The notes below the pieces were generated by a model. That model saw only the letters and a list, made by a program, of their open reading frames with translations, did not search any database and was not told the DNA's origin. Positions 8,563-54,400 of a DNA stretch of 64,000 nucleotides are shown one piece after another; position 1 is the first letter of the stretch; every line of letters begins with the position of its first letter. A program made the translations under genes and the position numbers. This DNA comes from Thiothrix sp. (GTDB lineage Bacteria; Pseudomonadota; Gammaproteobacteria; Thiotrichales; Thiotrichaceae). Location of the stretch: positions 1 to 64,000 of the forward strand of contig NZ_JAQTLS010000011.1 in the NCBI RefSeq assembly GCF_028714775.1. Reading direction: 5' to 3'.

Positions 8563-11500
8563 GTGCGCCTGAGCAAAATCCGCATTGCCGGATTCAAAAG
8601 TTTTGTTGATCCCGTCACGCTGGATTTACGCAGCAACCTTACCGGCATTCTCGGCCCCAACGGTTGCGGCAAATCTAACACCATTGACGCAGTACGTTGG
8701 GTGATGGGCGAATCTTCCGCTAAACACCTGCGTGGCGCTTCGATGGAAGATGTGATTTTCAACGGCTCTTCTTCGCGCAAACCTGTTGGCTTGGCCTCTG
8801 TCGAATTGGTATTCGACAATACTGATGGAACTCTGGGAGGAGAATACGCCAAATACGCCGAAATTTCCATTAAGCGGCAGGTGAGTCGTGATGGCGACTC
8901 AAAATATTTCCTCAACGGCTCGAAATGCCGCCGCCGTGACATCACCGACATCTTTCTGGGAACAGGCTTGGGGCCGCGCAGCTACGCCATTATCGAGCAG
9001 GGCATGATCTCGCGCCTGATCGAGGCCAAGCCGGAAGAACTGCGTAATACCCTCGAAGAAGCTGCGGGTATTTCCCGTTACAAAGAGCGCCGCCGTGAAA
9101 CCGAAACGCGCATGGCGCACACCCGCGAAAACCTCGAACGCCTGACCGACCTGCGCGAAGAGGTCGAAAAACAACTCGAACGCCTCGACAAACAAGCCAA
9201 AGCTGCGCAACGTTTCCGCGAGTTACGCGATGAAGAGCGCAAGCTCGAAGCCTCGGTATTACTGTTGCAATGGGATGAACTCAAAGCCGACAGCGAAGCC
9301 CGTTTGCGTGACTTGAGTGTGCGTTCCACCAGCTATCAGGCGCAAATTGTCCAAGTCCGCCATCTCGAAGCCATTGTCGAAGACCTGCGCCAGCAATACA
9401 TTGCCGCCAATGACGCGCTCAATGAAGTGCAGGGCGAGTACTACCAAGCGGGTGCTGAAATTGCCCGCCTTGAACAAAGCCTCCAGCACCAACGCGACAT
9501 CCAACGCCGCCAGCAAGAAGCCTTGCGCAATGCCGAAAGCAGCATCGAAGAGACCCTGCGCCACGCCGCCGAAGACCGCGAAAAACTGCTCGCCAGCACC
9601 CAAGCCCTTGCTGACCTCGAACCCCACGAAGACGAACTCAACGAGCAAGTCAGCATGGCGGAAGAGCGCTTGTTTGACGCCGAAGAGCGCCTCAACGACT
9701 GGCAAGAACAATGGCACACCATCCAGCAGCGTATTGCTGAACCTACCCGCCAAGCGCAGGTGGAAAAAGCCCGCATGGAGCAACTCGACCGCCAGCTCCA
9801 ACAAACCCTGCAACGCTTTGAGCGCCTCCAACAAGAAGCTACTAGCCTCGCCACCAACCACTTCGCCGAAGATTTGCAACTGCTGGAAGCCCAGTTAGAC
9901 GAAGCCAGCGAAGCACATGCCAGCGCCGAGTTTCAGCTTGAAAGTGTGACCACCAGCCTGCACCAATACCAGCAGCAACAGCGCGAACTCCAATCCCAAC
10001 TTGATACCCAGCGTTCCCAACGCCAAGCCCTGCAAGGCCGTTTGGCATCGCTGGAAACCCTGCAACAGGCCGGGCTGGACAAAGCTAATAAAGCCCGCCA
10101 ACAGTGGCTGCAAGCACACGGTCTGGACAAAAATCCGCGCCTTGCCGAACAGTTGCAGGTGGAAAATGGTTGGGAATTGGCAGTGGAAACGGTGCTGGGA
10201 GAGGATTTGGATGCAGTCTGCTTGAAGAACCCCTCACCCCTAACCCCTCTCCCTCAAGGGGAGAGGGGAAAAGAGGGTTATCCTAAAGCTGGAGTTACGT
10301 TGCTGGAAACGGAGTTGGACACTCTTTCTCCCTCTCCCCTTGAGGGAGAGGGTTGGGGTGAGGGGTATCTTCACCATAAAATTAATCACCCCCCCGCAGC
10401 CCGTAACCTATTCGCCACCATCCGCTGCGCCGAAACCCTGTCGGAAGCCCTTGCCCTGCGCCACACGCTTGCTCCCGGTGAATCCATCATCACCCGCGAT
10501 GGCCTGTGGCTCGGTTCCAACTGGTTGCGCAGCCGCCGAAACAACGATGCCCACAGCGGTATCCTGCAACGCCAGCAGGAAATCGAAAGCTTGCGCGGGC
10601 AATTGGAAGCACTCGAAACTAGCCTTGCCGCTTTGCAGGAACGCACGGAAAGCTTGCGCAATACTATCCGCGAGCACGAGCAGCAACGCCAGCAAGCACA
10701 GGCCGAAACCAACCAGTGTCACCGCGCTGTCTCCGAACACCGCAGCCGTTTACACGCACTGCAACAACGTCTTGACCAGCTTCACAGCCGCAGCCAGCAA
10801 GTGGAAGCCGAGTGCGAGGAGCTTGAAAGCCAGCGGATGCAACAGGAAGAAGACCACCTGCTTGCCAGTGAACGCCGCGCTATTGCTCTAGAAGCGCTCG
10901 AAACTGTGCAAGAGGAACGCGAACAACTCGCCGACCAGCGCGAAGACTTGCAGCACGCCGTCAGTGAAGCCCGCCGTAGCCAGCGTGAACTTCAGGACGA
11001 AGTGCAAGACATCCGCCTCAGCATTGAAACCAACCGCAACCAGCGCGACAACAGCCAACGCCAACTCGAACGCATTACCAGCCGCCTCGAATTGCTCGAA
11101 CAGCAACGTGATGTGCTGTTGGAACAGCTCCACATGCAGGAAGACCCCGCCGCCGATCTGCAAACTGATCTCGAAGACGCGATCACGACCCGCGCTGACG
11201 TTGAATTACGCCTAAGCCAAGCCCGCCAAGCCGTGCAAGTGCAGGAAGCTGACATCCGCAAGCACGACCAAGAGCGCATCCAAGCCGAACGCCTTGCCGA
11301 ACAGATGCGCAATGAGCAGGAAAGCCGCAAGCTTGAATGGCAAACCGTGCAAGTGCGTGAACAAACGGTTGCCGAACAGTTTGTCAAAACCGAATTTGTC
11401 CCCGCGATTTTGCACGCTGAACTGCCCGACGATGCCGAAATCAGTGTGTTCCAACAGCAATTGGAAGCCACCCAGCGCAGCATCCAGCGCCTCGGGGCGA

Positions 11501-12105
11501 TCAACCTTGCCGCAATTGACGAGTTCCGTGAGCAAAACGAGCGCAAGCAATACCTCGACCAGCAAAACGATGATCTGGTGGCGGCGCTGGAAACACTGGA
11601 AACCGCCATCCGCAAAATTGACCGCGAAACCCGCGCCCGTTTTAAAGACACGTTTGATCGGGTGAATGTGCGGCTGCGTGAAATGTTCCCACGTTTGTTT
11701 GGTGGCGGCGAATGTTACCTGGAAATGACAGGTGATGACTTGCTGACCACTGGGGTGTCGATCATGGCGCGTCCGCCCGGTAAACGGCTTTCCAGCATCT
11801 ACCTGATGTCGGGCGGGGAAAAGGCATTGACGGCGGTGGCGCTGGTGTTTGCCATTTTCGAGTTGAACCCCGCGCCGTTTTGTATGCTGGATGAGGTCGA
11901 CGCGCCACTGGATGAAGCCAACGTGGGACGCTTCTGCGAACTGGTGCGGCATATGGCAGAACAGGTACAATTCATCTTCATTACGCACAATAAAACCACC
12001 ATGGAACTTGCCGAAAACCTTATCGGTGTTACCATGCGGGAACCGGGTGTCTCGCGGTTAGTGGCGGTCGATGTGGCTGAAGCTGTAAAACTGGCGAACG
12101 GCTGA
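8563..12105 (+). CDS. smc: Chromosome segregation ATPase SMC with repeat-derived insertion in the hinge
   Basis: The SMC subunit of bacterial condensin, which loads on DNA with ScpA/ScpB and organises the chromosome. Length is 1180 residues. The N-terminal head has Walker A GPNGCGKSN (about residues 32-40). Long Gln/Glu/Arg-rich coiled coils (about 170-510 and 660-1010) flank the hinge. The C-terminal head has the signature LMSGGEKALTAVAL and Walker B CMLDEVDAPLDEAN. The start is a GTG at 8563, giving the family N-terminus MRLSKIRIAGFKSF. Residues about 556-601 are not SMC sequence: they are encoded by a palindromic repeat and read as Pro/Gly/Glu-rich peptide in the hinge. Downstream lies zipA, the usual gammaproteobacterial neighbour. 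Confidence 0.97.
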   Translation: MRLSKIRIAGFKSFVDPVTLDLRSNLTGILGPNGCGKSNTIDAVRWVMGESSAKHLRGASMEDVIFNGSSSRKPVGLASVELVFDNTDGTLGGEYAKYAEISIKRQVSRDGDSKYFLNGSKCRRRDITDIFLGTGLGPRSYAIIEQGMISRLIEAKPEELRNTLEEAAGISRYKERRRETETRMAHTRENLERLTDLREEVEKQLERLDKQAKAAQRFRELRDEERKLEASVLLLQWDELKADSEARLRDLSVRSTSYQAQIVQVRHLEAIVEDLRQQYIAANDALNEVQGEYYQAGAEIARLEQSLQHQRDIQRRQQEALRNAESSIEETLRHAAEDREKLLASTQALADLEPHEDELNEQVSMAEERLFDAEERLNDWQEQWHTIQQRIAEPTRQAQVEKARMEQLDRQLQQTLQRFERLQQEATSLATNHFAEDLQLLEAQLDEASEAHASAEFQLESVTTSLHQYQQQQRELQSQLDTQRSQRQALQGRLASLETLQQAGLDKANKARQQWLQAHGLDKNPRLAEQLQVENGWELAVETVLGEDLDAVCLKNPSPLTPLPQGERGKEGYPKAGVTLLETELDTLSPSPLEGEGWGEGYLHHKINHPPAARNLFATIRCAETLSEALALRHTLAPGESIITRDGLWLGSNWLRSRRNNDAHSGILQRQQEIESLRGQLEALETSLAALQERTESLRNTIREHEQQRQQAQAETNQCHRAVSEHRSRLHALQQRLDQLHSRSQQVEAECEELESQRMQQEEDHLLASERRAIALEALETVQEEREQLADQREDLQHAVSEARRSQRELQDEVQDIRLSIETNRNQRDNSQRQLERITSRLELLEQQRDVLLEQLHMQEDPAADLQTDLEDAITTRADVELRLSQARQAVQVQEADIRKHDQERIQAERLAEQMRNEQESRKLEWQTVQVREQTVAEQFVKTEFVPAILHAELPDDAEISVFQQQLEATQRSIQRLGAINLAAIDEFREQNERKQYLDQQNDDLVAALETLETAIRKIDRETRARFKDTFDRVNVRLREMFPRLFGGGECYLEMTGDDLLTTGVSIMARPPGKRLSSIYLMSGGEKALTAVALVFAIFELNPAPFCMLDEVDAPLDEANVGRFCELVRHMAEQVQFIFITHNKTTMELAENLIGVTMREPGVSRLVAVDVAEAVKLANG
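10230..10365. repeat. Palindromic repeat pair inserted in the smc reading frame
   Basis: The left arm (10230-10268) and right arm (10330-10365) are near-perfect inverted copies, each with an internal palindrome (CCCCTCTCCC...GGGGAGAGGGG). They are separated by 61 bases of unrelated sequence. The whole unit is translated without a stop as part of the SMC hinge (PSPLTPLPQGERG ... LSPSPLEGEGWGEG). Confidence 0.92.
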
Positions 12106-12141
12106 TAGATAAACACACAAGGAATAGACAAGGATTTTGCA

Positions 12142-12825
12142 ATGGAGTTGGTAAGCCTGATTATCATGGTGCTGGGGTTGGTTGCGTTGGTAGCCATTTA
12201 CGTCATCAGCCGAATTTCCCGTCGTGATTTGCCGCAAAAGCGGGACGCAAATGTCCCGGTATTACGCGATGCGGACGGTAATGAAATTTCCAGCGTGTTG
12301 GACGATGTACCCGCACGGGATGGCAAGCGCCCATCCGCTAATGCCCGCAATTTGTCGGATGTGATGATGTCCGGCGTGGCAGGCAAATCTACAACTCCCG
12401 AAGCAGAAGTTGCCAAAAACGTGGTGCTGCCGCCGCAATTGGTATTGTTCATTGCTGCCGATATTGATGCCGGTTTTGCGGGCGAAGAAGTCCTCAAAGC
12501 GCTGGATAACGCGGGGCTGAGTTTCGGCGATATGGGCATTTTCCACCGCATGGTCTTGACCGGCGAAGGCGAAGCCAGCTTGTTCAGCGTTGCCAATGGC
12601 GTGAAACCGTGGACGCTGGTTCCCGAAGAGTTGGTGGAACAGGCCACGCCGGGGCTTTCCATGATTTTGAACCTGCCTAGCCCGATCAATAACAATGAAG
12701 CTATCCACGACTTCATGCGTACTGCTGAGCGCTTGGTCGCTGATTTGGGCGGTGTGCTAAAAAATCAGGAACAACAAGCGATTACGGCGGAATACCGGGC
12801 TGATTTGCTGGCGTTGGCAGGCTAA
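12142..12825 (+). CDS. zipA: Cell division protein ZipA
   Basis: A 227-residue ZipA-like protein, an inner-membrane anchor that tethers FtsZ to the membrane at the divisome. One N-terminal membrane span (about residues 3-22, LVSLIIMVLGLVALVAIYVI) is followed by a basic stretch, a short flexible linker, and the C-terminal ZipA domain from about residue 95 (LPPQLVLFIAADIDAGFAGE ... GIFHRMVLTGEG ... LSMILNLPSP). It is shorter than the E. coli protein (328 residues) because the Pro/Gln linker is reduced. It lies 36 bases after smc on the same strand, the conserved order. The ligA gene that often follows is absent here. Confidence 0.93.
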   Translation: MELVSLIIMVLGLVALVAIYVISRISRRDLPQKRDANVPVLRDADGNEISSVLDDVPARDGKRPSANARNLSDVMMSGVAGKSTTPEAEVAKNVVLPPQLVLFIAADIDAGFAGEEVLKALDNAGLSFGDMGIFHRMVLTGEGEASLFSVANGVKPWTLVPEELVEQATPGLSMILNLPSPINNNEAIHDFMRTAERLVADLGGVLKNQEQQAITAEYRADLLALAG

Positions 12826-12886
12826 AAACCTATGCCGTTTGTCGGAAAAGCGCGGGCGGATATGCCGTGATAGGGCTTGATTGATT

Positions 12887-12906
12887 AAATGATAATGATT
12901 ATCATC
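12887..12906. promoter_or_regulatory. Fur-box-like operator
   Basis: TGATAA-TGA-TTATCA at 12890-12904 is a perfect palindrome matching much of the Fur consensus GATAATGATAATCATTATC. It lies about 90 bases upstream of the start of the outer membrane protein gene, suggesting iron-responsive control. Confidence 0.7.
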
Positions 12907-13006
12907 TGCTGCATACTATAATCTGTCGGTATCACTTTGCATTATTGCAGCAGGGTGTGGTCGTATTATTTTTAATCGGGAGTAGAGTGATAATGAAAAA
13001 AGTATT

Positions 13007-13678
13007 TTGTTGGCAGCAGCCGTGTTGGGTACGTTATCTGCCAATACGCAAGTGTTGGCGGGCGCAAGTGGCAGTGTTGCTGTCACCAGCAACTACGTGG
13101 CACGCGGTTTGACCCAAACGCAGGATGACGAGGCGGCGTTGCAAGGCACATTCAATTACACCACCCAAAGTGGCCTGTATGGGGAAGTGTTCGGTTCCAA
13201 CGTTAAATTCAATGGTATCCGCGACACTGAAATTGATCTGTCTGCGGGCTACAAAAAAGACTTGGAAAATGGCTTGGGTTACGATGTCGGTGTCGTCAAG
13301 TATGTTTATCCAGAGCACAGTTCCCCAGATTATTCAGAAGCCTACGGTAAACTTTCTTACAAAGGCTGGGGCGCGGAAGCTTACTACACCGTTGACAGCA
13401 AAGACGCGACCAATGCCGTCCAGAAAGGGGATGTGTATTACGCCTTAGGTTACAACGGCGAACTCCCGAACAATTGGGGTTACGGTGTGCAGGTCGGGCA
13501 TGATAATTTCAAAGCCGCCGATGCAGATTATGATCACGCGCAAGTGTCCTTGACCAAATCGCTGGATAAGATGGGCGACTTGGCATTGGTAGTGGATCAT
13601 GCCGACACCGGGATAGGTACGGCTCCCAACGGCACGAAAGAGAACCGCGCCAGCCTGACGTGGACGAAAAATTTTTAA
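13007..13678 (+). CDS. TIGR02001-type outer membrane protein, start region frameshifted
   Basis: A beta-rich protein of the TIGR02001/Gcw_chp family of outer membrane proteins: alternating aromatic strands such as VAVTSNYVARGLTQT, GLYGEVFGSNV and a C-terminal aromatic residue in LTWTKNF. The function is unknown. The open frame begins at TTG 13007 with a truncated signal peptide (MLAAAVLGTLSANTQVLA). The natural-looking start, ATG at 12993 with GGAG upstream, reads MKKVFCW and is out of frame. One base added in the AAAAAA or TTTT run would give a normal MKK-start signal peptide. A Fur-like box lies upstream. It converges with the di-heme oxidoreductase gene, with four bases between stop codons. 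Confidence 0.8.
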   Translation: MLAAAVLGTLSANTQVLAGASGSVAVTSNYVARGLTQTQDDEAALQGTFNYTTQSGLYGEVFGSNVKFNGIRDTEIDLSAGYKKDLENGLGYDVGVVKYVYPEHSSPDYSEAYGKLSYKGWGAEAYYTVDSKDATNAVQKGDVYYALGYNGELPNNWGYGVQVGHDNFKAADADYDHAQVSLTKSLDKMGDLALVVDHADTGIGTAPNGTKENRASLTWTKNF

Positions 13679-13682
13679 GCCA

Positions 13683-15083
13683 CTAAAGTGAATTCAGGAA
13701 GCGTAACAGCGCGTTACGTTCTTCCTTGCTCATGGTGAGCACGGCTTGGCGGGCTTTTTCGGCTTCGCCGCCGTGCCACAAAATCGCTTCCAGTAGGTTG
13801 CAGGCGCGTCCATCATGCAGGAAGCGGGTATGCCCGTTAACCGTTTCGACCAAACCAATTCCCCATAGCGGTGCGGTGCGCCATTCATTGCCACTGGCTT
13901 CAAAGTCTGGGCGCTTATCCGCCAATCCCTCCCCCATGTCGTGCAACAGCAGGTCGGTAAATGGCTGGATCGGCTGATGTTCCAATTCCGGGAAACCGGC
14001 TTTGCTGCCAGTGGTGATGGCGGGTGTGTGGCAAGCCGCGCATCCGGCCTGTTGGAACAGCTTTTGCCCTTGCAAGACGCTGGTGTCCTCCACGTCACGG
14101 CGGGCAGGGACAGCCAACAAACTGGCGAAAAACGTTACGGCATCCACGGTGGTTTGCTGGGCTTCCGGTTTGCCACCATCGGGTTGCTGGCGGCATTCCT
14201 GCTGTTTGGTGGTGCAGGAAGGTTCGGGGCGAAAGGTGGAGGTAATACCAATGTCGTTATTGAATGCCGTCGTGGTTTGCTGCGCCACGCTCGGTTGGTT
14301 AGCTTTCCAGCCGAAACGCCCCAGTACAGTTTTTTGCTGCGCTGCATCCCAGGCGTAGTTCGGGTGGCCTGAAATGCCATCGCCGTTTTTATCGTCGGGG
14401 TCAGCTTGGGCAAGGATGTCGGTTTCTTCAATCGCTTCCAGCAAACCCAGCCCAATCAAGGCGGGGGCAACGCGGGCGGATGTTTGTATGTTTTCAGGTA
14501 ACTTGCCGTAATTCAGCGCTTCGATTAGCAGCTTGGGTTGCAGGAGGGTGTAGGTTTCACCGTCCTTGAACGTGCCTTTGATTTCGGTGTATTCAAAACG
14601 CGGCGTGCCTTCGCCTTTTACCCCGTCAATGCCGTGAATTTGTAACTGGTCGCCGTAAGTGGGTTCGGGGACGACGCCGATAGTCCGCTGCATTGCCCGT
14701 TGCGCAGCGGTTTTGGGTGGAATGCTCAAACGCACCAGCGTTGATAGGAATGCATCATCCTTGCTCAGTGGCGGGTGGCCTTTGCCCGCTTGGACATGGC
14801 AGTTTTGGCAGCTATTGATGTTAAACAATGGCCCCAGCCCGTCACGCGCAGGCGTGGGGGAGGGCGCAACTACCCACGGCTGTTTGAAAAAGGCATTGCC
14901 GATAAAAAAATCATTTTGCCGTGAGGGGCTGATGTTGGCGGCGGGGTGGGAGAAGGCGCTCATGCTGGCATCAAATACGGTCGTTGCCCCGCCCGACTGT
15001 CGTGGGTCGGGGGTGGCGGGTGTTGCATTGCTGTTAGCGATCCCCGCCAGTGCCAGTAGGCTAAGGGCTAAAGTCGGTTTCAT
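13683..15083 (-). CDS. Periplasmic di-heme c-type oxidoreductase (DHOR/DUF1111)
   Basis: A 466-residue exported protein of the DUF1111 di-heme oxidoreductase family, related to cytochrome c peroxidases. It has a signal peptide (about residues 1-20) and two c-type heme motifs: CQNCH at residues 92-96 and CAACH near residue 350. Typical segments such as GLGPLFNINSC, DPDDKNGDGISGHPNY, HDMGEGLADKRP and FLHDGRACNLLEAILWHGGE are present. The substrate is unknown; related genes often occur in iron-uptake or imelysin loci. Here the neighbour across the convergent junction is an outer membrane protein with an upstream Fur-like box, consistent with an iron or redox theme but not proof. Confidence 0.9.
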   Translation of the reverse strand: MKPTLALSLLALAGIANSNATPATPDPRQSGGATTVFDASMSAFSHPAANISPSRQNDFFIGNAFFKQPWVVAPSPTPARDGLGPLFNINSCQNCHVQAGKGHPPLSKDDAFLSTLVRLSIPPKTAAQRAMQRTIGVVPEPTYGDQLQIHGIDGVKGEGTPRFEYTEIKGTFKDGETYTLLQPKLLIEALNYGKLPENIQTSARVAPALIGLGLLEAIEETDILAQADPDDKNGDGISGHPNYAWDAAQQKTVLGRFGWKANQPSVAQQTTTAFNNDIGITSTFRPEPSCTTKQQECRQQPDGGKPEAQQTTVDAVTFFASLLAVPARRDVEDTSVLQGQKLFQQAGCAACHTPAITTGSKAGFPELEHQPIQPFTDLLLHDMGEGLADKRPDFEASGNEWRTAPLWGIGLVETVNGHTRFLHDGRACNLLEAILWHGGEAEKARQAVLTMSKEERNALLRFLNSL

Positions 15084-15278
15084 GACCCGTCCAGTCTCTT
15101 CTCAAGGTTCCGCCGAATCATAAACGTTATCGTTGGCCTTGCGCAGGAAATCTTGTAGACGTGGCAAAAAACAGTTTTTTTCTACCTTACTCATGAACTC
15201 TTGATATTTGTCGACAATTGAAAAGGCATATCACTTTTGTGCAGTTGCAGCAAAAACGGCAATGCGGTAAGTTCAGCA

Positions 15279-15298
15279 AATCAAGTTGACGCTTGATT
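15279..15298. promoter_or_regulatory. Inverted repeat in the nifJ upstream region
   Basis: AATCAAG (15279-15285) and CTTGATT (15292-15298) are perfect 7-bp inverted repeats with spacer TTGACG. It lies 85 bases before the nifJ start and may be an operator. The rest of the 299-base gap (15084-15382) contains AT-rich promoter-like sequence but no gene that I can support. Confidence 0.5.
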
Positions 15299-15382
15299 CT
15301 TAAGGTTATCCTTGTATCTCCAATGGGGGGTATGCCTTAGGGTCAACAATCCGATGAATAGCTGAGTTACGGGGTTCCCACG

Positions 15383-18982
<3,600 letters not shown>

Positions 18983-18989
18983 CCTGAGA

Positions 18990-20828: not shown

Positions 20829-20830
20829 GC

Positions 20831-26399: not shown

Positions 26400-26440
26400 G
26401 AAGAAAACCCATCCCCAGCCCTTCCCTTATCAGGGAAGGG
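26400..26440. repeat. Left 41-bp inverted repeat flanking the DUF559 remnant
   Basis: Starts GAAGAAAACCCATCCCC and ends TCAGGGAAGGG, with internal palindrome CCCTTCCCTTATCAGGGAAGGG. Its reverse complement recurs at 26658-26698 with one difference seen. A separate perfect hairpin, CCGCCGC/GCGGCGG (26382-26398), lies just outside. Confidence 0.9.
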
Positions 26441-26494
26441 AGCAGAGCGTCACTTCGTCTGCCGGGTTTGCCCAGTGAATGAGGGTTTGGCAGC

Positions 26495-26612
26495 ATGGCA
26501 GAAATGAAAGAGTATGTATTTCTGCCCTACAACAAAAACTTGGTCGAATTGGCACAGCTCAACCGCAAAACCCAACTGCCGCAGAACGTGTGATGTGGAC
26601 GGCTGACCGCCG
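26495..26612 (+). pseudogene. DUF559-type endonuclease remnant
   Basis: ATG at 26495 opens MAEMKEYVFLPYNKNLVELA, the N-terminus typical of DUF559 proteins (restriction-endonuclease-like, related to very-short-patch repair nucleases). After QLNRK the frame shifts: a four-A run (26564-26567) where five would be needed gives TQLPQNV and a stop at 26591. The continuing family sequence NPTAAERVMWT is found in the +1 frame up to about 26605. The catalytic domain downstream is lost. The remnant sits between two 41-bp inverted repeats. Confidence 0.7.
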
Positions 26613-26657
26613 CAGTCCGCCAACACTTATTGGCCTATATCGAAACCGCCTCCTGCG

Positions 26658-26698
26658 CCCTTCCCTGATAAGGGAAGGGCGGGGGATGGGTTTTCTTC
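26658..26698. repeat. Right 41-bp inverted repeat flanking the DUF559 remnant
   Basis: Reverse complement of the left arm: CCCTTCCCTGATAAGGGAAGGG followed by CGGGGGATGGGTTTTCTTC. Together the arms enclose 217 bases. The stretch from 26699 to 26743 shows no gene that I can support. Confidence 0.9.
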
Positions 26699-38019: not shown

Positions 38020-39330
38020 TCAATTCAGTTGTACCCGCGTCCCCCACGGTACGGGTGATTTGCCTTTGACTAGCCAGATAACCGGGAAGTTCGGTGCGGT
38101 TGGCGGGAAGTAGCCTTGCGCATCGGTGAAATACACCAAAATATCCGGCTGCTGGTCTTGCGTGCTGATCCAGTCGAATACCGGACGGAAATCAGTCGTG
38201 CCGCCACCGGGCATTTGTTGGGGTAGTGTGGCTTCTTCCCACGGCTCGAAGCGGCGTGGGAAACCTTCTACCACGGTGGAATCGCAGGCCATCATGGTGA
38301 CAGCGGCGCGGACTTGCCCCTTGATGGCATTGATTTCAGACAGGCAATCTTGCAATTCCTTGTTGCCGACGGAACCGCTCACATCCAATGCCACCACTGC
38401 GTTAATTTGGTGGCTTTTGAGGCTGGGAAAAATCGCAGGGTCGCCGCGCCGCGAAGAAGGGCGAGTGTAGCTGTAATCATCGCGTGCCACGGCGGTCATG
38501 TAATGCGCCAGCAACGTGCGCCACGGCAAGCGCGGTTGCAGCAGTTCTTCCACCAAGCGTTTCATCACGCCGCTGAGTTTGCCCGCTTGCTGCGCTTGTT
38601 GGGCAGCTCCGGCAAGGCGTTGTTGCCATTGGGTGCTGAGGTCTTCGGCTTCTTGTGGGGTTAGGGGTGGGGGAGGAAAAACCCCTCCCAGCCTCCCCTT
38701 ATCAGGGGAGGAGCTAAGAGGTGCAGTGCCTTCCTGTCCCTCCCCTGATAAGGGGAGGTTAGGAGGGGTTTCTTTTGGTGAGTCTTTGGGAGGAGGTGGT
38801 TGTTCCTGCCTCTCGCGGTTATCCAACGGATTTTCACTAGTATCACGACTACCTTCGGCAGGGTTATCCTCCTTGTCATACAAGTGCTGATCCAGCGTTT
38901 CGGACATATCGTTGTCGTCAATCAGCGGGTAAATTTCCTCCGCGCTCATGCCGACGTATTCTTTCATTTTTAGGATGCCCGGCGGCGGTTTGAGGCCGTC
39001 GTCGATTAGGATGGGGTTGATGGCGTAATCGCAAGCCAAATCCCAGCGGTGTTTGACCCGATGCACCCGGCGGGCAAAGTGCGATAGGGCGCAGTGCAAG
39101 GCTTCGTGGGCAAGCACAAATTGCGCTTCATCCGGGCGCAGTTCCTGTATGTATTCGGGGTTGTAGTAAAACTTGCGGGCATCTGTCCCTGTGGTGGGAC
39201 ACCATGCCGGGTTTGCTGCTTGCAAGGGCAGGCGCAACACCAGTGCGCCAAGGAACGGCTTGTCGAGGATCAGCTTGGTGCGGGCAGCGGTCAGTTTGTC
39301 TTCGATGGCTTGCAAGTCAAAGTCGGGCAT
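38020..39330 (-). CDS. DUF2201-type VWA/metallopeptidase-like protein with repeat insertion
   Basis: A 436-residue protein with an N-terminal putative metallopeptidase domain (HEALH at residues 75-79, after YIQELRPDEAQFVLA) and a C-terminal VWA-like domain (VVALDVSGSVGNKELQDCLS, a MIDAS-type DxSxS). These proteins usually partner a MoxR-type AAA+ ATPase to remodel or activate other proteins; no such ATPase is in the window. Residues about 187-217 are encoded by a palindromic repeat (NLPLSGEGQEG...SPDKGRLGGV) and lie in the low-complexity linker between the domains. It is 43 bases downstream of the kdsD start region, on the same strand, but is probably a separate unit. Confidence 0.85.
   Translation of the reverse strand: MPDFDLQAIEDKLTAARTKLILDKPFLGALVLRLPLQAANPAWCPTTGTDARKFYYNPEYIQELRPDEAQFVLAHEALHCALSHFARRVHRVKHRWDLACDYAINPILIDDGLKPPPGILKMKEYVGMSAEEIYPLIDDNDMSETLDQHLYDKEDNPAEGSRDTSENPLDNRERQEQPPPPKDSPKETPPNLPLSGEGQEGTAPLSSSPDKGRLGGVFPPPPLTPQEAEDLSTQWQQRLAGAAQQAQQAGKLSGVMKRLVEELLQPRLPWRTLLAHYMTAVARDDYSYTRPSSRRGDPAIFPSLKSHQINAVVALDVSGSVGNKELQDCLSEINAIKGQVRAAVTMMACDSTVVEGFPRRFEPWEEATLPQQMPGGGTTDFRPVFDWISTQDQQPDILVYFTDAQGYFPPTAPNFPVIWLVKGKSPVPWGTRVQLN
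38679..38771. repeat. Palindromic repeat pair inserted in the VWA gene
   Basis: Arms starting AAACCCCTCCCAGCCTCCCC and ending GGAGGTTAGGAGGGGTTT are inverted copies. Each contains the palindrome CTCCCCTTATCAGGGGAG (the second as CCCTGATAAGGGG). The unit is read through in frame. The core TTATCAGGG matches the inverted repeats flanking the DUF559 remnant more closely than the smc-type element. Confidence 0.9.
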
Positions 39331-46566: not shown

Positions 46567-46622
46567 CAAGAATCGAGCCAATGCGTTTTATATTTAGTGT
46601 CTTAATATAGAGGTAATAACCA

Positions 46623-47651: not shown

Positions 47652-47736
47652 CGAGAACATCGACGACGGACGCGGTGACAGCCCGCGTCTATCGTCCAGT
47701 CTACTCCCCGCCGCGCCCGTCATGTTGACGTTAGCG
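47646..47736 (+). other. attC site 1
   Basis: R'' core GCATAAC (overlapping the TAA of the DUF2806 gene), arm GACGACGGACGCGG, central loop, arm CCGCCGCGCCCGTC, and R' core GTTAGCG. GACGGACGCGG pairs with CCGCGCCCGTC with one mismatch. Confidence 0.92.
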
Positions 47737-47795
47737 AGAGATAGACCGATCTATAACTTTCTAAATTTAAAGATAAATTAAGAAGAGAAATTTTC

Positions 47796-48725: not shown

Positions 48726-48726
48726 T

Positions 48727-48816
48727 CACTAACAAATCATTTGACGACGGACGCGGTGAGAGCCCTCGATTTTTACGACTTACTCCCCGCCACGCCCGTT
48801 AATTCAGACGTTAGCT
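48727..48816 (+). other. attC site 2
   Basis: R'' core CACTAAC, arm GACGACGGACGCGG, arm CTCCCCGCCACGCCCGTT, and R' core GTTAGCT. It lies two bases after the stop codon of cassette 2. Confidence 0.92.
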
Positions 48817-48862
48817 TTCTACAATACAGAACTCTTAAATAAATTATACAAATGGTAAATCA

Positions 48863-49426
48863 ATGAATAAAGAATCAAGAAAAGACAAACCAAAGATATT
48901 TATTTCTTATGCTAACGATGATTCAGGCAGGGCAAAAGATATTGCTAAAGAACTTAAAAAATACAATCTTGAAACATGGTTAGATGAAGAGAATATTTCT
49001 GCTGGACAAAATTGGCGTTCTGAAATAGAAAATGCTATTGAATCTTGTGATTTCGCATTAGTTCTAATTAGCTCTAAAGCATTTTCTTCTGAATGGGTCA
49101 AAAAAGAGTGGACTTCTCTCTGTGAAGAAAAATGGAAACGTCCCAATATTAACATTATTCCTATAAAGCTAGAAGATTCAAAAACCCCTCCTTTTTTATG
49201 TCAGTATCAATCATATAATTTAAAAGGCTCTGAATCTTATTACAGCTTAATCAACGACCTACTTACAAAAACCAAAAAATCCGGGTTCAATTACAACAAA
49301 AAAGACCTTATAGATAATGAGTTCGATTTAGAGGTTGACCGTCTAGAAGAGCGAATACGCAATATTAAGAAATTATTAAAGGAAAAAAAAGAATATCAAA
49401 AGGAGTCCAAAGATGACCAAACTTGA
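48863..49426 (+). CDS. TIR-domain protein (cassette 3, first gene)
   Basis: A 187-residue protein whose residues 10-135 form a TIR domain (KIFISYANDDSGRAKDIAKE, LETWLDEENISAGQNWRSEI, FALVLISSKAFSSEWVKKEW). The putative catalytic glutamate is E82 in the S-x-W-x3-E pattern; bacterial TIR domains of this type can hydrolyse NAD+ or make signalling nucleotides. The C-terminal part (about 145-187) is a charged helix (LEVDRLEERIRNIKKLLKEK), perhaps for oligomerisation. It overlaps the next gene by 14 bases, and both share one cassette. Phage defence by NAD+ depletion is a reasonable inference, not shown here. Confidence 0.88.
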   Translation: MNKESRKDKPKIFISYANDDSGRAKDIAKELKKYNLETWLDEENISAGQNWRSEIENAIESCDFALVLISSKAFSSEWVKKEWTSLCEEKWKRPNINIIPIKLEDSKTPPFLCQYQSYNLKGSESYYSLINDLLTKTKKSGFNYNKKDLIDNEFDLEVDRLEERIRNIKKLLKEKKEYQKESKDDQT

Positions 49427-50087
49427 ACACCGCATTCATTTTGGAATGGGATGTTTAAGTTTTGAGCGAAATACATCCGTATTCATTAACTGCCCTTTTG
49501 ATTCGGCCTATTCTTCAATATTCGACGCAATTGTTTTTTCTACTACATGCTGTGGCTTTCTACCAAGAAGTGCAATAGAAAGTGGGTCAACCTCTGTACC
49601 AAGAATGGATCGTATAACACAAGCCATTTATGCCTCAAAGTATTCAATCCATGATCTTTCCAGATGCAGAGGTGAAGGAGATAAAAATTTGGCACGCTTT
49701 AATATGCCACTAGAACTTGGCGTATGCATGGCTCAAAAATTTGGCCAAGAATCTGGTAGTGATCATGATTGGTTATTGCTTGTTCCTAAAGACAGTCAAT
49801 ATGTTAGATATGTATCTGATATGGCCGGTTATGACCCTAAACAGTACGACGTTAGTCCTGAATCAGCAGTTCCAGCAGTCATGTCTTGGTTGGCGACTAG
49901 ACCAGATGCGGTAATAACCTCGACTCCAAAAGAAGTCATTAAAGCTTTGCCAGAATTTATAGAACGAAAGAAATGCTTATCAGAGGCTTGGGGTGGAGAT
50001 GAGCCTTGGTCAAATATTGTTCTGCTTGCCATGTCAATTGGGCAAGAACATGGCTTAATACCACAAACAGAAGAGGCACATAGCTAA
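49413..50087 (+). CDS. TIR-linked cassette protein, FxNCPFD/HDLSR family (cassette 3, second gene)
   Basis: A 224-residue protein translated with a 14-base overlap from the TIR gene. Conserved-looking segments are VFINCPFDSAYSSIFDAIVF, ESGSTSVPRMDRITQAIYAS, YSIHDLSRCRGEGDKNLARF, NMPLELGVCMAQKFG, and the C-terminal WATRPDA-like region. I recall this as a sporadic family of presumed nucleotide- or nucleoside-processing fold (TIR/deoxyribosyltransferase-like), but cannot name it. The stop codon overlaps the R'' core of attC3. Its pairing with a TIR protein in one cassette suggests a two-component effector or an effector plus regulator. Confidence 0.8.
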   Translation: MTKLEHRIHFGMGCLSFERNTSVFINCPFDSAYSSIFDAIVFSTTCCGFLPRSAIESGSTSVPRMDRITQAIYASKYSIHDLSRCRGEGDKNLARFNMPLELGVCMAQKFGQESGSDHDWLLLVPKDSQYVRYVSDMAGYDPKQYDVSPESAVPAVMSWLATRPDAVITSTPKEVIKALPEFIERKKCLSEAWGGDEPWSNIVLLAMSIGQEHGLIPQTEEAHS

Positions 50088-50172
50088 CAAATCATTCGAC
50101 GACGGACGCGGTGACAGCCCGCAACTTCGCCCAATTTACTCCCCGCCGCGCCCGTCATGTTAGACGTTGGTG
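50082..50172 (+). other. attC site 3
   Basis: R'' core AGCTAAC (overlapping the TAA of the preceding gene), arm GACGACGGACGCGG, arm CTCCCCGCCGCGCCCGTC, and R' core GTTGGTG. Confidence 0.92.
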
Positions 50173-50234
50173 ATAGAAAAGACGACATCGAAGATTTACA
50201 GAATATTATTATAATTGATCAATAAATTCTCCAG

Positions 50235-50510
50235 ATGCAACGTTTATTCGCGGATTTCCCCGAACTGTAGCTTGCTGCGCTGGTCGGTAGTCGCGCTACG
50301 GGCAAGCATCGCTCGGACAGCGATTGGGATTTCGCGATTCAGTGGCAGATACGGAAACCCTGCGCAATCGGCTCGCCCATTAGTGGACACTGATATTGAC
50401 CTCTGATTGAGTTGCGGAGTGTACGGCTGGCTTCCGTGATCCGTGATGTGGTGGCAAATGAGTTGTATGGACATCGACAGTATCTGCACATAGATTCCTC
50501 ATACACTTGA
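50235..50510 (+). pseudogene. MNT-type nucleotidyltransferase remnant
   Basis: ATG at 50235 opens MQRLFADFPEL, then an in-frame TAG (50268-50270), then LAALVGSRATGKHRSDSDWD and FAIQW in the same frame. GSRATG...SDSDWD is the minimal-nucleotidyltransferase active-site motif. A frameshift follows: VDTDIDL and then LRSVRLASVIRDVVANELYG are readable in other frames to a TGA at 50508. At least one nonsense and one or two frameshift changes are needed, so this is a pseudogene, probably the antitoxin/NTase half of an MNT-HEPN pair; no HEPN partner is seen. Confidence 0.7.
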
Positions 50511-50568
50511 CAAGATTCGGAAAAGAAAATACTGTCTAGTCTGTCCAGTTTGATTTGAGGTTGGAACA

Positions 50569-50823
50569 ATGGAACAGAACATATGGCAACTCCAAGATGC
50601 AAAAAGCAAATTTAGCCAATTAGTTGATAGTGCAATACACCACAGACCTCAGTTTGTAACTAAACATGGGAACAATGCTGTCGTTATTCTTTCATTTGAA
50701 GATTATGTAAAATTTATTAAACCAAAGGATGATTTAGTAACTTTCCTCAAAAACTCGCCTTTGGCAGAAAGTGACCTTGATTTTTCAAGAAACAAAGATA
50801 TGCCAAGAAATATTGAGTTATGA
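50569..50823 (+). CDS. Phd/YefM-type antitoxin
   Basis: An 84-residue antitoxin: WQLQDAKSKFSQLVDSAIHH, then FVTKHGNNAVVILSFEDY, is the Phd/YefM DNA-binding fold (about residues 5-55), and the acidic C-terminus (PLAESDLDFSRNKDMPRN) is the toxin-binding part. Its stop overlaps the toxin start by four bases (ATGA), implying coupled translation. It should neutralise the PIN toxin and repress its own promoter. The A/T-rich coding sequence resembles the cassettes to the left, but no attC follows it. Confidence 0.92.
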   Translation: MEQNIWQLQDAKSKFSQLVDSAIHHRPQFVTKHGNNAVVILSFEDYVKFIKPKDDLVTFLKNSPLAESDLDFSRNKDMPRNIEL

Positions 50824-51248
50824 AATACTTGCTGGACACTTGTGTTATCTCTGAGGTCATAAAGAGAGAACCCAATAAAAATGTCATTTCATGGTTGCAG
50901 GCTCAAGATGAAGCCAATCTATTTTTAAGCATACTGACGTTTGGTGAAATACAAAAAGGCATTCAAAAAGACCCTGATGAAAATAGAAAGAAAAAATTAA
51001 AGATATGGGTCGAAGAAGACTTAAAAAAACGCTTTGAAAACCGAATTATCCCCATTGACTTGAAAGTTGTTTCTAACTGGGGTTCTATTCAAGGTTTGGC
51101 AGAACTGGCTGGTAGAACAATGCCAACTCTAGATGGGCTTATAGCCGTATCAGGACTCACTTATAACTGTACAGTAGCCACAAGAAACACCTCAGACATG
51201 GAGCAAAGTACAGCAGAGCTATTCAACCCTTGGGAATACAAAGAATAA
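50820..51248 (+). CDS. PIN-domain toxin (FitB/VapC-type)
   Basis: A 142-residue PIN-domain ribonuclease toxin. Acidic metal ligands are visible: D6 in KYLLDTCVISEV, the glutamate in ILTFGEIQKGI, and the aspartate in TLDGLIAVSGLTYN; the last segment CTVATRNTSDM matches the terminal strand and helix. Paired with a Phd-type antitoxin it forms a type II module. This is the second PIN toxin in the window; it is not similar in detail to the vapC at 4.1 kb (different antitoxin family). Its gene ends just before the terminator of the converging PDH operon. Confidence 0.9.
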   Translation: MKYLLDTCVISEVIKREPNKNVISWLQAQDEANLFLSILTFGEIQKGIQKDPDENRKKKLKIWVEEDLKKRFENRIIPIDLKVVSNWGSIQGLAELAGRTMPTLDGLIAVSGLTYNCTVATRNTSDMEQSTAELFNPWEYKE

Positions 51249-51252
51249 TACG

Positions 51253-51284
51253 AAAAAAAGCGGCTTGTTGTTCAGGCAAGCCGC
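51253..51284 (-). terminator. Rho-independent terminator of aceEF-lpdA
   Basis: On the minus strand GCGGCTTG pairs with CAAGCCGC around a 9-base loop and is followed by seven T. It lies 40 bases after the lpdA stop codon. Confidence 0.88.
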
Positions 51285-51323
51285 CAACCGGTTTCTCACT
51301 TACGTGAGGAGTCAAACTCAGAA

Positions 51324-53081
51324 CTATTTCTTCGGCGCGTAAATATCAGTACACGTGCCTTCTGCCACTTCCGCCGCAAAATTCAACGTTTCGGATAACG
51401 TCGGGTGCGGGTGGATGGTCAAGCCTATGTCGTGCGCATCCGCGCCCATTTCCAACGCCAGCACTGCTTCGGCGATTAATTCCCCTGCATTTTTACCCGC
51501 GATACCTGCGCCAATGATGCGCCCGCTTTCCTTGTCGAACAGCACTTTGGTCACGCCGTTGCTGGCATCCATCGACAACGCCCGCCCACTCGCTGCCCAC
51601 GGGAACACGCCTTTTTCGTAAAGCACGCCTTCGTCTTTGCACTGCTCTTCGGTTTTGCCCATCCACGCCACTTCCGGGCTGGTGTAGGCGACCGATGGGA
51701 TGGTTTTTGCGTCGAAATAGGATTTGTGCCCCGCAATCACTTCCGCTGCAACTTTGCCTTCGTGCGTGGCTTTGTGCGCCAACATCGGCTGCCCCACGAT
51801 GTCACCGATGGCGAAAATGTGCGGTACGTTGGTACGCATCTGCTTGTCAACCGGGATGAAGCCGCGAGCATCGACGAATACCCCCGCCTTGCCCGCATCA
51901 ATCAGTTGACCGTTGGGGGAACGCCCAATCGCCACCAGCACGCGGTCGAACGTATCTTTTTCGGGTGCGCCTTTGCCTTCAAACGTACACGCCAGCCCTT
52001 CCGGGGTGGGCGTAATCGCGGTGACTTTGGTGCTGAGGTAAATGTTTTCGTACAAGCCTTTGATGCGGGTATGCAGCGGTTTCACGATGTCGCGGTCAGC
52101 ACCGGGCATCAGCCCCGGCGATAGTTCCACCACCGTGATGCTTGCGCCAAGCGCGTGGTAAACCGTCGCCATTTCCAGCCCGATGATGCCGCCGCCAACC
52201 ACCAACATGCGTTTGGGGATTTCCGGTAACTCCAGCGCATCGGTGGAATCCATCACGCGCGGGTCGTCCCACGGGATGAAGGGCAGCTTGGTGACACGCG
52301 ACCCGGCGGCAATGATGCAGTTTTCAAAGCGCACGGTTTGCTTGCTGCCATCAGCGGCTTCCACCTCAAGCGTGTGGTCGGAAGTGAAGCGCCCGTAACC
52401 TTGCACAATCTGCACTTTACGCTGCTTCGCCAACCCCTTGAGGCCAGTCGTCAATTTGCTGACAGTGCTGGCTTTGTGGGCGCGTACCGCATCAATATCA
52501 ATCTCCGGCTCACCGAATTTCACCCCGTGCTTGGCGAATTCCTTCGCTTCGGTAATCACTTCCGCCGTGTGCAACAACGCCTTCGACGGGATGCAACCGA
52601 CGTTCAAACACACCCCGCCAATATTGGGATAACGCTCGATCAGCACCACTTTCTTGCCAAGATCGGCAGCGCGGAACGCAGCGGTGTAACCGCCGGGGCC
52701 GGAGCCTAGGACGACGAGTTCGGCAAAAAGACCCTCACCCCCCGCCCCCCTCTCCCGAGAAGCGGTAGAGGGGGAGAAAGAGGGTTCTTCCATCTTTAGC
52801 CCCTCTCCCTCGGGGAGAGGGGCTGGGGTGAGGGCTTCTTCCGCCATCTCCAACATCATCAACGCCGACCCCTCCGACACCCGATCTCCCACCTTCACCA
52901 GCATCTGCTTAATCGTGCCAGCGACAGGGCTAGGGATTTCCATTGACGATTTGTCGGATTCAATGGTAATCAGCGAATCTTCCACCTCAATCTGAAAGCC
53001 TGCATCGACCAGCACTTCGATGATTTCCACATCCTTGAAGCTGCCAATGTCGGGGACTTTGACTTCGATTATCTTGCTCAT
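51324..53081 (-). CDS. lpdA: Dihydrolipoyl dehydrogenase (E3) with N-terminal lipoyl domain
   Basis: The E3 component that reoxidises dihydrolipoyl groups of the pyruvate dehydrogenase complex, passing electrons through FAD to NAD+. Residues 1-78 are a lipoyl domain with K44 in ESDKSSMEIP. From residue 118 the flavoprotein follows: FAD site VVLGSGPGGYTAAF, redox pair C158/C163 in GGVCLNVGCIPSK, NAD site VVGGGIIGLEMATVY, and the C-terminal HPHPTLSET active-site segment. Residues about 84-117 come from a palindromic repeat (TPAPLPEGEGLKMEEP...SRERGAGGEG) and serve as the linker. Lipoyl-fused E3 is known in some bacteria. It overlaps aceF by four bases. Confidence 0.96.
   Translation of the reverse strand: MSKIIEVKVPDIGSFKDVEIIEVLVDAGFQIEVEDSLITIESDKSSMEIPSPVAGTIKQMLVKVGDRVSEGSALMMLEMAEEALTPAPLPEGEGLKMEEPSFSPSTASRERGAGGEGLFAELVVLGSGPGGYTAAFRAADLGKKVVLIERYPNIGGVCLNVGCIPSKALLHTAEVITEAKEFAKHGVKFGEPEIDIDAVRAHKASTVSKLTTGLKGLAKQRKVQIVQGYGRFTSDHTLEVEAADGSKQTVRFENCIIAAGSRVTKLPFIPWDDPRVMDSTDALELPEIPKRMLVVGGGIIGLEMATVYHALGASITVVELSPGLMPGADRDIVKPLHTRIKGLYENIYLSTKVTAITPTPEGLACTFEGKGAPEKDTFDRVLVAIGRSPNGQLIDAGKAGVFVDARGFIPVDKQMRTNVPHIFAIGDIVGQPMLAHKATHEGKVAAEVIAGHKSYFDAKTIPSVAYTSPEVAWMGKTEEQCKDEGVLYEKGVFPWAASGRALSMDASNGVTKVLFDKESGRIIGAGIAGKNAGELIAEAVLALEMGADAHDIGLTIHPHPTLSETLNFAAEVAEGTCTDIYAPKK
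52732..52834. repeat. Palindromic repeat pair inserted in lpdA
   Basis: The unit begins CCCTCACCCCCCGCCCCCCT and ends GGGGCTGGGGTGAGGG, with internal palindromes CTCTCCCGAGAAGCGGTAGAG and CCCCTCTCCCTCGGGGAGAG (first portion). It spans the whole linker between the lipoyl and E3 domains. Confidence 0.92.
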
Positions 53082-54400
53082 ACCAGCAACCTCCGAATGT
53101 CACCCAGCATTTTCGCCAAGTAAGTGGTGAAACGTGCACCATCCGCCCCGTCTATCACGCGATGGTCGTAGGACAGCGACAGCGGCAACATCAAGCGCGG
53201 GGTAAATTCCTTGCCGTTCCAAATGGGCTGCATGTCAGCTTTGGAAATGCCGAGGATGGCGACTTCTGGCGCATTCACAATCGGGGTGAATTTCGTGCCA
53301 CCAATCCCGCCGAGGCTGGAAATCGAGAGGCAACCGCCTTGCATGTCCGCAGGTTTGAGTTTCTTGTCACGCGCTTTGGCGGAGATTTCTTTGAGTTCTT
53401 CCGATAATTGCATGATGGATTTTTTGTCCACGTCACGGATCACGGGAACGACCAAACCATCGGGCGTATCCACTGCCACGCCGATGTGGAAGTAGTTTTT
53501 GAGGATTAGGTTTTCACCTTTCGCATCCAATGAGGAATTGAAACGCGGGTAAGCCTTCAAGCCCGCCACCACCGCTTTCATGATGAACACCAGCGGGGTG
53601 ATCTTCATGCCGGATTTGGCGTTTTCCTCATTCAACTGCTTGCGGAAGGCTTCCAGATCGGTGATGTCAGCTTGGTCGAATTGGGTAACGTGCGGAATGT
53701 GTACCCAGTTGCGGTGCAGGAATTCGCCCGTGAGCTTGTTGATGCGTGACAGCGGCTGCGTTTCGATGTCACCCCATTGGCTGAAGTCGATGTCTGGCAT
53801 CGGCGCAACGCCCAGCGTATTGCCGGAAGCTGCTGCCGATGGCATTCCGCCAAAGCTCATCACGTCTTTGATGAAGGCTTTTACGTCTTCCTGCGTGATG
53901 CGCCCTTTGCGCCCTGAGCCTGCGACTTTGTTCAGGTCTGCGCCGAGTTCGCGGGCAAACTTGCGCACCGACGGGGTGGCGTAGGCTTTGCTGAAATCCA
54001 CGTCTTTCAGGTCGGCTTGCACGGCGGCAGTAGGGGAACGCTTACCCCTCACCCCTAGCCCCTCTCCCTCAGGGGGAGAGGGGAATTGGACGGAAGAAGT
54101 GACAGCATCTTTCTCCCCCTCGCCCCTTGAGGGAGAGGGGGCAGGGGGGGGAGGGGTGTTTTCCACCACATCCACCACCAACATCAAACTCCCCGCCGAA
54201 ATGCGCTCGCCGACCTTAACCTTCAGCTCCTTGACCACGCCCGAAACGGACGAGGGGATTTCCATCGACGCCTTGTCGGATTCGACCGTGATCAGCGCGT
54301 CTTCCAGCGCGATGGTGTCGCCAACCTTGACCAGTACTTCCGTGATTTCCACGTCCTTGAAGCTGCCAATGTCTGGCACGAAAATTTCTTGGATTGCCAT
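53078..54400 (-). CDS. aceF: Pyruvate dehydrogenase dihydrolipoamide acetyltransferase (E2)
   Basis: The E2 core that transfers the acetyl group to CoA. Its 440 residues comprise one lipoyl domain (1-78, K43 in ESDKASMEIP), a repeat-derived linker (about 82-119), a peripheral-subunit-binding domain (about 138-172, YATPSVRKFARELGADLNKV), an Ala/Gly linker and the catalytic domain with the active-site HRVIDG near residue 415. E. coli AceF has three lipoyl domains; here only one is present on E2 and another on E3. It overlaps lpdA by four bases and lies 12 bases downstream of aceE. Confidence 0.97.
   Translation of the reverse strand: MAIQEIFVPDIGSFKDVEITEVLVKVGDTIALEDALITVESDKASMEIPSSVSGVVKELKVKVGERISAGSLMLVVDVVENTPPPPAPSPSRGEGEKDAVTSSVQFPSPPEGEGLGVRGKRSPTAAVQADLKDVDFSKAYATPSVRKFARELGADLNKVAGSGRKGRITQEDVKAFIKDVMSFGGMPSAAASGNTLGVAPMPDIDFSQWGDIETQPLSRINKLTGEFLHRNWVHIPHVTQFDQADITDLEAFRKQLNEENAKSGMKITPLVFIMKAVVAGLKAYPRFNSSLDAKGENLILKNYFHIGVAVDTPDGLVVPVIRDVDKKSIMQLSEELKEISAKARDKKLKPADMQGGCLSISSLGGIGGTKFTPIVNAPEVAILGISKADMQPIWNGKEFTPRLMLPLSLSYDHRVIDGADGARFTTYLAKMLGDIRRLLV
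54045..54156. repeat. Palindromic repeat pair inserted in aceF
   Basis: Left arm CCCCTCACCCCTAGCCCCTC... and right arm ...GGGGGCAGGGGGGGGAGGGG are inverted copies. Each has an inner palindrome (CCCCTCTCCCTCAGGGGGAG; CCCCTTGAGGGAGAGGGG). They are separated by about 31 bases and translated in frame in the linker after the lipoyl domain. Confidence 0.92.

Follow-up and report, generated by a model that had tools for sequence, protein, structure and literature searches.

Palindromic arms inside conserved Thiothrix genes are probably the ends of a small mobile-element family with a DUF559 gene

The window analysed here is a stretch of 64,000 nucleotides on contig 11 (NZ_JAQTLS010000011.1) of the 4.30-Mb, 70-contig genome of a Thiothrix sp., to which named species of Thiothrix are the nearest relatives. 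It carries short palindromic repeats, hereafter arms, which occur singly or in inverted pairs, between genes and inside them, and which are probably the ends of small mobile elements with a gene of the DUF559 protein family. The original prediction placed such repeats inside smc, a VWA/metallopeptidase gene, lpdA and aceF, and a direct look at the window found all four, each in an open reading frame (ORF) that stays free of stops across the repeat and keeps its known Pfam domains on either side. The smc gene (8563..12105, + strand) is open through a left arm of family A (10230..10275, + strand) and a right arm of the same family (10328..10365, − strand). The approximately 16 residues separating the two align with native SMC sequence, so smc carries two arms and not one insert. 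The DUF2201_N/DUF2201 (VWA-like) gene identified by Pfam (38020..39330, − strand) contains a left arm of family B with a TTATCA loop (38680..38719, + strand) and its right arm (38739..38771, − strand). In lpdA (51324..53081, − strand), a family A arm (52731..52781, + strand) and a second arm (52799..52834, − strand) lie in the linker between the lipoyl and FAD domains, and in aceF (53078..54400, − strand) a family A arm (54044..54085, + strand) and a second arm (54114..54156, − strand) lie in the linker between the lipoyl and E3-binding domains. The domains retained around the repeats are SMC with its hinge, DUF2201_N/DUF2201, lipoyl and pyridine nucleotide-disulphide oxidoreductase in LpdA, and lipoyl, E3-binding and catalytic domains in AceF. 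That the repeats are not due to chance is indicated by arm-to-arm matches of the window against itself, with E-values of 4e-3 down to 8e-15. The predicted intergenic relatives are also real: a single family A arm with a GCGAAGC loop (3754..3796, + strand) just after a 546-residue ORF (2106-3746), and a pair with outer ends at 26400 and 26698. The proposal of one repeat family gives way to several families with a common layout, and the statement that all copies are translated in the same sense holds for the peptides it quoted and fails for the partner arms in the same genes, which are read oppositely.

The anatomy of the arms was derived from position tables over 58 arms. Each runs from a purine-rich outer edge (approximately GAAGAAA) through a C-rich head and a few bases to a pyrimidine stem strand, a short loop, a purine stem strand and then approximately AGCAAGAG. 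The head is a mirror image of the stem, and hairpin plus head therefore have the layout of an intrastrand triplex. A pair consists of two inverted arms with their heads outward, separated by a spacer that is, by eye, very roughly 40-60 bases long. Family A has CCCTCTCCC stems with the loop subtypes TCAAG, GCGAAGC and AGAGGTAG; family B is CCTCCCC-TTATCA-GGGGAGG, family C CCCTTCCC-TTATCA, family D CCTTCCCCCGCAAGGGG and family E CCCCTTTTGCAAAGGGG. No GTAG or CGTC tag was found at the edges of the 58 tabulated arms. Repeats of the BoxC/PIT/TM class have been known in E. coli since the 1990s but have no established function or mode of spreading. The + strand reading of the smc right arm fits the published consensus of the E. 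coli TM repeats (TM_ECO), CCCTCNCCCN3-6GGGNGAGGGN3GGGNGAGGG. The third strand could be mapped at many arms, and families B, C, D and E have the BoxC/PIT/TM layout in different letters. Because of this common layout and the fit of the smc arm, the Thiothrix repeats are assigned, on sequence grounds, to the BoxC/PIT/TM class.

Over the whole genome, one arm core is present in 21 exact copies. At up to three mismatches it is found in 33 places, but a backwards control then gives 24, so only the exact matches are informative; the arm type of the VWA gene is found in 22 places at up to three mismatches, with none for its control. The two arm patterns together gathered 52 loci (30 of 33 and 22 of 22 places), which resolve into 58 clusters that we classed as coding or intergenic from ORFs and Pfam. 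Twenty lie in Pfam-supported ORFs, eight in four paralogous ORFs, two in further large ORFs for which Pfam support is partial or lacking and five at DUF559 loci, while the other 23 lie between genes or close to a gene start, or are doubtful (one is probably no arm). The tabulation gives no sign of a preference for genes. The host genes encode SMC, AceF, LpdA, DUF2201, ArgS (two arms), PolA, Mfd, RecC, HypF, MalQ and PrmC, as well as a dipeptide-type ABC ATPase, a TrpE-like enzyme, a 6-phosphogluconolactonase-family protein, MlaE and STAND/TIR proteins. The four paralogous ORFs, of 631-656 residues on contigs 5 and 9 (L006, L007, L009 and L010), each carry arms at two corresponding places near the C-terminus; no Pfam match was obtained for L009, the one of the four that was scanned, or for L028. 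An element that selects a stop-avoiding frame and orientation had been suggested and was rejected. Among the 20 Pfam-supported insertions, 30 arms occur in both orientations and in all three phases, which makes up all six classes, and arms are no more stop-free than their shuffled versions (a mean of 4.3 of six frames open over the 58 arms vs 5.0). Openness therefore follows from base composition and gene survival, and in-frame survival requires no special design.

Comparison with sister genomes indicates that these repeats were inserted. For the SMC hinge, where presence was judged from aligned peptides, 12 other Thiothrix genomes and four of six fetched outgroups could be aligned: the repeat peptides are present in 6 of the 12 sisters, and absent from the other 6 and from all four aligned outgroups, so they are not ancestral. 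Both arms are found in the genome studied here and in G374, G375, G377, G369 and G372, only the second arm in G373, and none in G379, G380, G371, G370, G378 or G376. In named Thiothrix species, the AceF and LpdA linkers hold different palindromic peptides or none. By eye, the ArgS linker, which we take to precede the HIGH motif, carries a family B arm here and in G372; eight sisters have three other palindromes there between them, two have remnants and G376 has nothing. The three other types (L193-L202), all in frame, hold GTAGGGGCGAATGG, GTCGGGCTTCAGCCCGAC, and CTTCGGCTCCGCTCAGGG..GAGCGAAG, respectively. Since the ArgS, AceF and LpdA linkers carry differing palindromes among Thiothrix, flexible linkers are used repeatedly by several palindrome types. 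The view that inserted palindromes are tolerated in linkers is borne out by this variability in SMC, AceF and ArgS, and by a clean empty site elsewhere. At that site, which lies outside the four genes of the window, G369 carries a complete 120-bp pair of family A, without a DUF559 gene, that G377 lacks; the smc and argS loci of these two genomes are approximately 96% identical. The inserted pair is flanked on both sides by GTCAT, which is single at the empty site of G377. This single insertion of one arm pair supports, without establishing, a 5-bp target duplication. In a survey of filled and empty sites, two sister pairs were compared over stretches that hold 55 clusters; both flanks were located in the sister for 24 views (counted from both sides), giving two filled/empty pairs, one of them clean and the other with another hairpin at the position. 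When G377 is compared with G369, the aceF arms, the lpdA arms and those of a site 3′ of lpdA switch jointly from family A to family D. Conversion in place, driven by a nuclease, was considered for this switch and set aside: the aceF-lpdA segment is only approximately 92% identical, compared with approximately 96% at smc and argS, and recombination that imported this segment is the simpler and likely explanation.

Three genes of the genome match DUF559 with E < 1e-10, and a fourth match is weak (E 0.004). All three clear genes sit between inverted arms, with a different arm type for each. The intergenic pair in the window, formed by a left arm of family C with a TTATCA loop (26400..26445, + strand) and a right arm of the same family (26653..26698, − strand), encloses a 32-codon ORF (26495..26590, + strand). 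A tblastn comparison with the fetched DUF559 loci aligned 26 residues of its product with the N-terminus of a DUF559 protein at 50% identity (E 1e-4). In both G369 and G377, this reference protein is encoded between arms of family B. The ORF, only 32 residues long, gives no Pfam DUF559 match. The original prediction listed the pair only as a relative of the repeats; it probably encloses the remnant of a DUF559 gene and would thus be a decayed DUF559 element.

DUF559 genes were found in all 13 Thiothrix genomes searched, at 33 places. Twenty-five of these loci were examined, and 21 entered a FastTree tree built from approximately 115 residues, the other four being missed by the recognition motif. 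A hairpin arm borders the gene on at least one side at 21/21 tree loci and on both sides at 18/21. The type of arm follows the clade of the protein: D arms at 11 of 11 loci of clade D, AGAGGTAG arms at 4 of 4 of clade A1 and TTTTGCAAA-type arms at 2 of 2 of clade E, a match that also holds among several DUF559 genes of one genome. By their outer flanks, the 21 loci represent 16 separate locations, nine of them for clade D, two for A1 and two for E, and shared location therefore does not explain the match. In one location group, the A1 loci and an A2 locus have common flanks, and gene and arms differ together. The inverted similarity reaches 116 of 129 bases (L167) and can extend beyond the hairpin on both sides. 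A gene bounded by inverted ends thus recurs at different genomic locations, as is characteristic of transposable elements with terminal inverted repeats. With the DUF559 type of a genome judged from fetched loci only, genomes with an A1 locus hold 8-25 A1 arms and those without hold 0-9 (p 0.007). In G377, one DUF559 match (L177) lies inside an open frame of 1159 residues, and the locus also holds a long ORF that resembles DUF1156. The DUF559 genes of a Synechocystis sp. B12 plasmid (L135) and of plasmid pAQ6 of PCC 7002 (L136) adjoin annotated DUF1156 genes, which may be a recurrent insertion site.

The association between DUF559 and hairpins is strong in the wider Gammaproteobacteria. Among 369 genomes of this class, 81 contain DUF559 at E 1e-10. 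The best matches of 30 genomes were fetched, 7 loci at contig ends were dropped, and the 23 of full length were used. Within 250 bp of the gene, a GC hairpin is found on the left at 17 loci, on the right at 18, on both sides at 15 and on either side at 20. In the same 23 loci, distal controls gave 0, 1 and 0 (left, right, both) at 550-800 bp, and 2, 2 and 1, with either side at 3/23, at 1000-1250 bp. Filtering for pyrimidine stems leaves the DUF559 counts unchanged (20/23 either side, 15/23 both). Around the NDK genes of these genomes (27 loci, reduced to 22 by leaving out one second copy and four short loci), the filtered hairpins occur near 2/22, none with both sides, and any GC hairpin near 5/22, two with both sides. 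Mismatched pairs of left and right flanks had been tried as a null and discarded: 11/33 loci exceeded the 99% level, but so did 15/33 for direct repeats, and this null is uninformative because the loci share similar self-complementary hairpins; the distal-flank and NDK controls were used instead. Across the 369 genomes, the hairpin pattern CCCTCTCCC-N2-10-GGGAGAGGG has 1830 copies, compared with three single matches of a backwards control. At least one copy is present in 60/81 genomes with DUF559 and in 57/288 without (odds ratio 11.6, p 3e-19), and at least 10 copies in 29/81 and 14/288 (p 6e-12), phylogeny being ignored in both tests.

The association, spread over many gammaproteobacterial families, extends to some other groups. 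Of 44 DUF559 records found by tblastn in a plasmid collection, 12 were fetched, and 8/12 have strict hairpins within 300 bp; those with hairpins on both sides belong to Deinococcus aetherius, D. proteolyticus, a Sphingomonas and a Sinorhizobium. A looser scan (450 bp, one stem mismatch, no control) is positive for all records except that of Picosynechococcus PCC 7002. Thiothrix and Deinococcus have the layout '> gene <', and other gammaproteobacteria often have '>< gene ><', that is, a pair on one or both sides. In E. coli, the DUF559 gene is ycjD (b1289), located between sapF and fabI at approximately 170 bp from TM_ECO no. 9 (1,351,204-1,351,239); the ycjD region is present at at least 80% coverage in 3333 of 5426 E. 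coli genomes. Comparison of three E. coli TM loci with shortened or empty alleles gave no clean target duplication. In strains 8234 and C9 (L310, L311), paired TM repeats are cut to one hairpin, apparently by deletion between the arms.

A published account names YcjD as a member of the PD-(D/E)XK superfamily (PMC1189080). By sequence, DUF559 matches the solved structure PDB 3hrl (E 1.5e-25) and, weakly, Vsr. Residues D52, E63, D65, H69 and D76 are identical in 37/37 aligned DUF559 proteins, drawn from the 37 of 45 loci that were recognised; of the conserved positions, only E23, Q43, H69 and D76 count as independent, because the selecting motif demanded DF and E/A-x-D. From its sequence, the protein is classed as a PD-(D/E)XK, Vsr-like endonuclease. 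PADLOC has no match to it, and PHROGs gives only weak matches, two of which are endonucleases. A DUF559 protein is needed for an SOS response in Caulobacter, and the authors of that study infer that it makes breaks (PMC12907096).

We consider it about 70% probable that the repeats are the ends of a small mobile-element family with a DUF559 gene, and that the dispersed copies are non-autonomous. The autonomous form would be an inverted arm, the DUF559 gene and an inverted arm, each arm combining a homopyrimidine/homopurine hairpin with a mirror-image third strand. The nuclease would recognise its own type of arm, as hairpin or as triplex, and cut, and the cut would let arms or whole pairs be copied to new sites, through either a transposase-like reaction or copying at the cut itself, with dispersed single arms and pairs as the non-autonomous copies. 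A host gene would survive where a copy enters a flexible linker with the frame kept and no stop. Because arms have few stops in any frame, many insertions within genes are tolerated (SMC, AceF, LpdA, ArgS, PolA, Mfd and RecC, among others). That the nuclease itself mobilises the arms, and the manner in which it would do so, is what we infer. We also lean slightly towards ycjD being the E. coli relic or carrier of such an element, with every nuclease lineage owning a palindrome family much as each RAYT owns its REP sequences, by unrelated chemistry.

Several observations weigh against this reading. No movement was observed; the 55 clusters of the two sister pairs yielded only one clean candidate for a target duplication, and inspection by eye of the ends of 18 DUF559 elements yielded none (L170 had no usable alignment). 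The strict scan leaves 3 of the 23 gammaproteobacterial loci without a hairpin within 250 bp and 4 of the 12 plasmid-collection records without any, and at ycjD the only clear arm is on the fabI side, a partial arm overlapping the end of the gene. Two arm types are known from single loci, and two loci of a further Thiothrix clade (L184, L185) have a common stem with a different loop. The copy-number test for D arms is weak (1-62 with a D locus vs 0-12 without, p 0.08): D arms number 11 and 12 in two genomes that have no D locus among those fetched, and only one in a genome that has such a locus. The genome-level tests carry no correction for phylogeny, and the 57 hairpin-bearing genomes without DUF559 include 14 with at least 10 copies.

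Some insertion sequences target REP sequences, and the palindromes could likewise be a feature of the host or target in or beside which DUF559 inserts as a parasite or passenger, without mobilising them. Such a relation would suit the many loci at which the gene is accompanied by a complete pair on one side or on both ('>< DUF ><') instead of a simple two-ended element, as well as the hairpin-rich genomes that lack DUF559 at E 1e-10. It is nevertheless unlikely, as arm type tracks DUF559 clade at separate locations (11 loci at nine locations for clade D) and among the paralogs of one genome, which target choice from a mixed pool would not by itself yield, and as the inverted similarity, which reaches lengths of 129 bp, can extend beyond the hairpin in both directions. 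Less probable again is a spread without a dedicated enzyme, in which hairpins or triplexes stall replication forks, slippage or gene conversion copies the arms, and DUF559 is a repair nuclease that stays nearby since it acts on these structures. Its resemblance to Vsr fits this, as do the single-hairpin reductions in E. coli 8234 and C9 and, as reported in PMC4666352, BoxC/TM sites that vary and lose the parts between arms; but DUF559 genes and their arms are found together at many separate locations, and a complete 120-bp pair entered its site cleanly with an apparent 5-bp duplication. Movement as REP/REPIN elements by a RAYT (HUH Y1 transposase) shares the layout of short hairpins, inverted pairs and one flanked enzyme gene, yet is highly improbable here: the arms lack a 5′ GTAG or CGTC tag, and RAYT was rejected as the mobiliser since the sole PF01797 match of the genome (E 0.01) is bordered by a different repeat, GTAGGAGCCTGCC....

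Two other repeats stand apart from the arms. The PF01797 match, the only one to a Y1 transposase, lies at L031:1390-1884 on contig 3 between two genes that we take to be of the formylglycine-generating-enzyme type, and its GTAGGAGCCTGCC... palindrome is a separate REP-like family. In the window, imperfect copies of a direct 75-85-bp repeat lie at 47660-47735, 48729-48815 and 50084-50168 (n = 3) and are unrelated to the arms.

A mobile-element family with a DUF559 gene would resemble several known systems in part. Holder et al. (2015; PMC4666352) report that the E. coli TM motif forms a triplex in vitro, by circular dichroism and nuclear magnetic resonance, and that all 23 repeats of E. coli K-12 are intergenic, with no mobility genes nearby and with inverted pairs. 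The Thiothrix arms share the layout and the inverted pairs, but many lie inside genes, the third strands stand outside the pairs and not inside them as in E. coli, and DUF559 (ycjD in E. coli) is proposed here as the partner gene. With REP/REPIN-RAYT (TnpA-REP) systems they share small palindromes, inverted pairs, an enzyme gene between cognate palindromes and dispersed copies without the gene; the enzyme, however, is of the PD-(D/E)XK type (DUF559) and not HUH Y1, there is no GTAG/CGTC tag, and one copy shows a possible 5-bp target duplication. The Thiothrix system is therefore built like REP/RAYT without being a member of it. Di Nocera et al. (2013; PMC3733652) describe palindromes that are translated in frame within housekeeping and repair genes, among them recB and tRNA synthetase genes, and such palindromes are thus already known in other bacteria; those families are GTAG/CGTC-tagged, and the available part of that paper draws no link to DUF559. 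Rickettsia palindromic elements, with which the repeats had been compared, likewise lie in frame within genes, and the Thiothrix copies are absent at the same site in relatives (SMC, AceF, ArgS); the comparison is apt, judging from the literature, for the fate of the protein, while it overlooked the partner gene. Caulobacter VsrA belongs to the same protein family and fold class, and an SOS response in cells depends on it, but the accessible text of PMC12907096 treats it as the mismatch-repair partner of a methyltransferase and mentions no link to repeats. Miniature inverted-repeat transposable elements and their parent insertion sequences also have terminal inverted repeats, copies without a gene and, possibly here too, target duplications, whereas the parent gene in Thiothrix is no known transposase and the ends are triplex-type hairpins.

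A search limited to the open-licence PMC literature found no link between DUF559 and palindromes; this link is the new part, in-frame palindromes and the BoxC/PIT/TM class being already known. The DUF559 element is a possible 'owner' of that repeat class. A one-gene partner in matched nuclease/palindrome pairs makes the question of how these repeats spread testable in E. coli K-12, through ycjD, and suggests a role for DUF559, a family of unknown function. If true, there would be, besides REP/RAYT, a second and chemically unrelated palindrome family with its own enzyme, and its copies would account for the proline- and glycine-rich linker peptides in conserved Thiothrix proteins.

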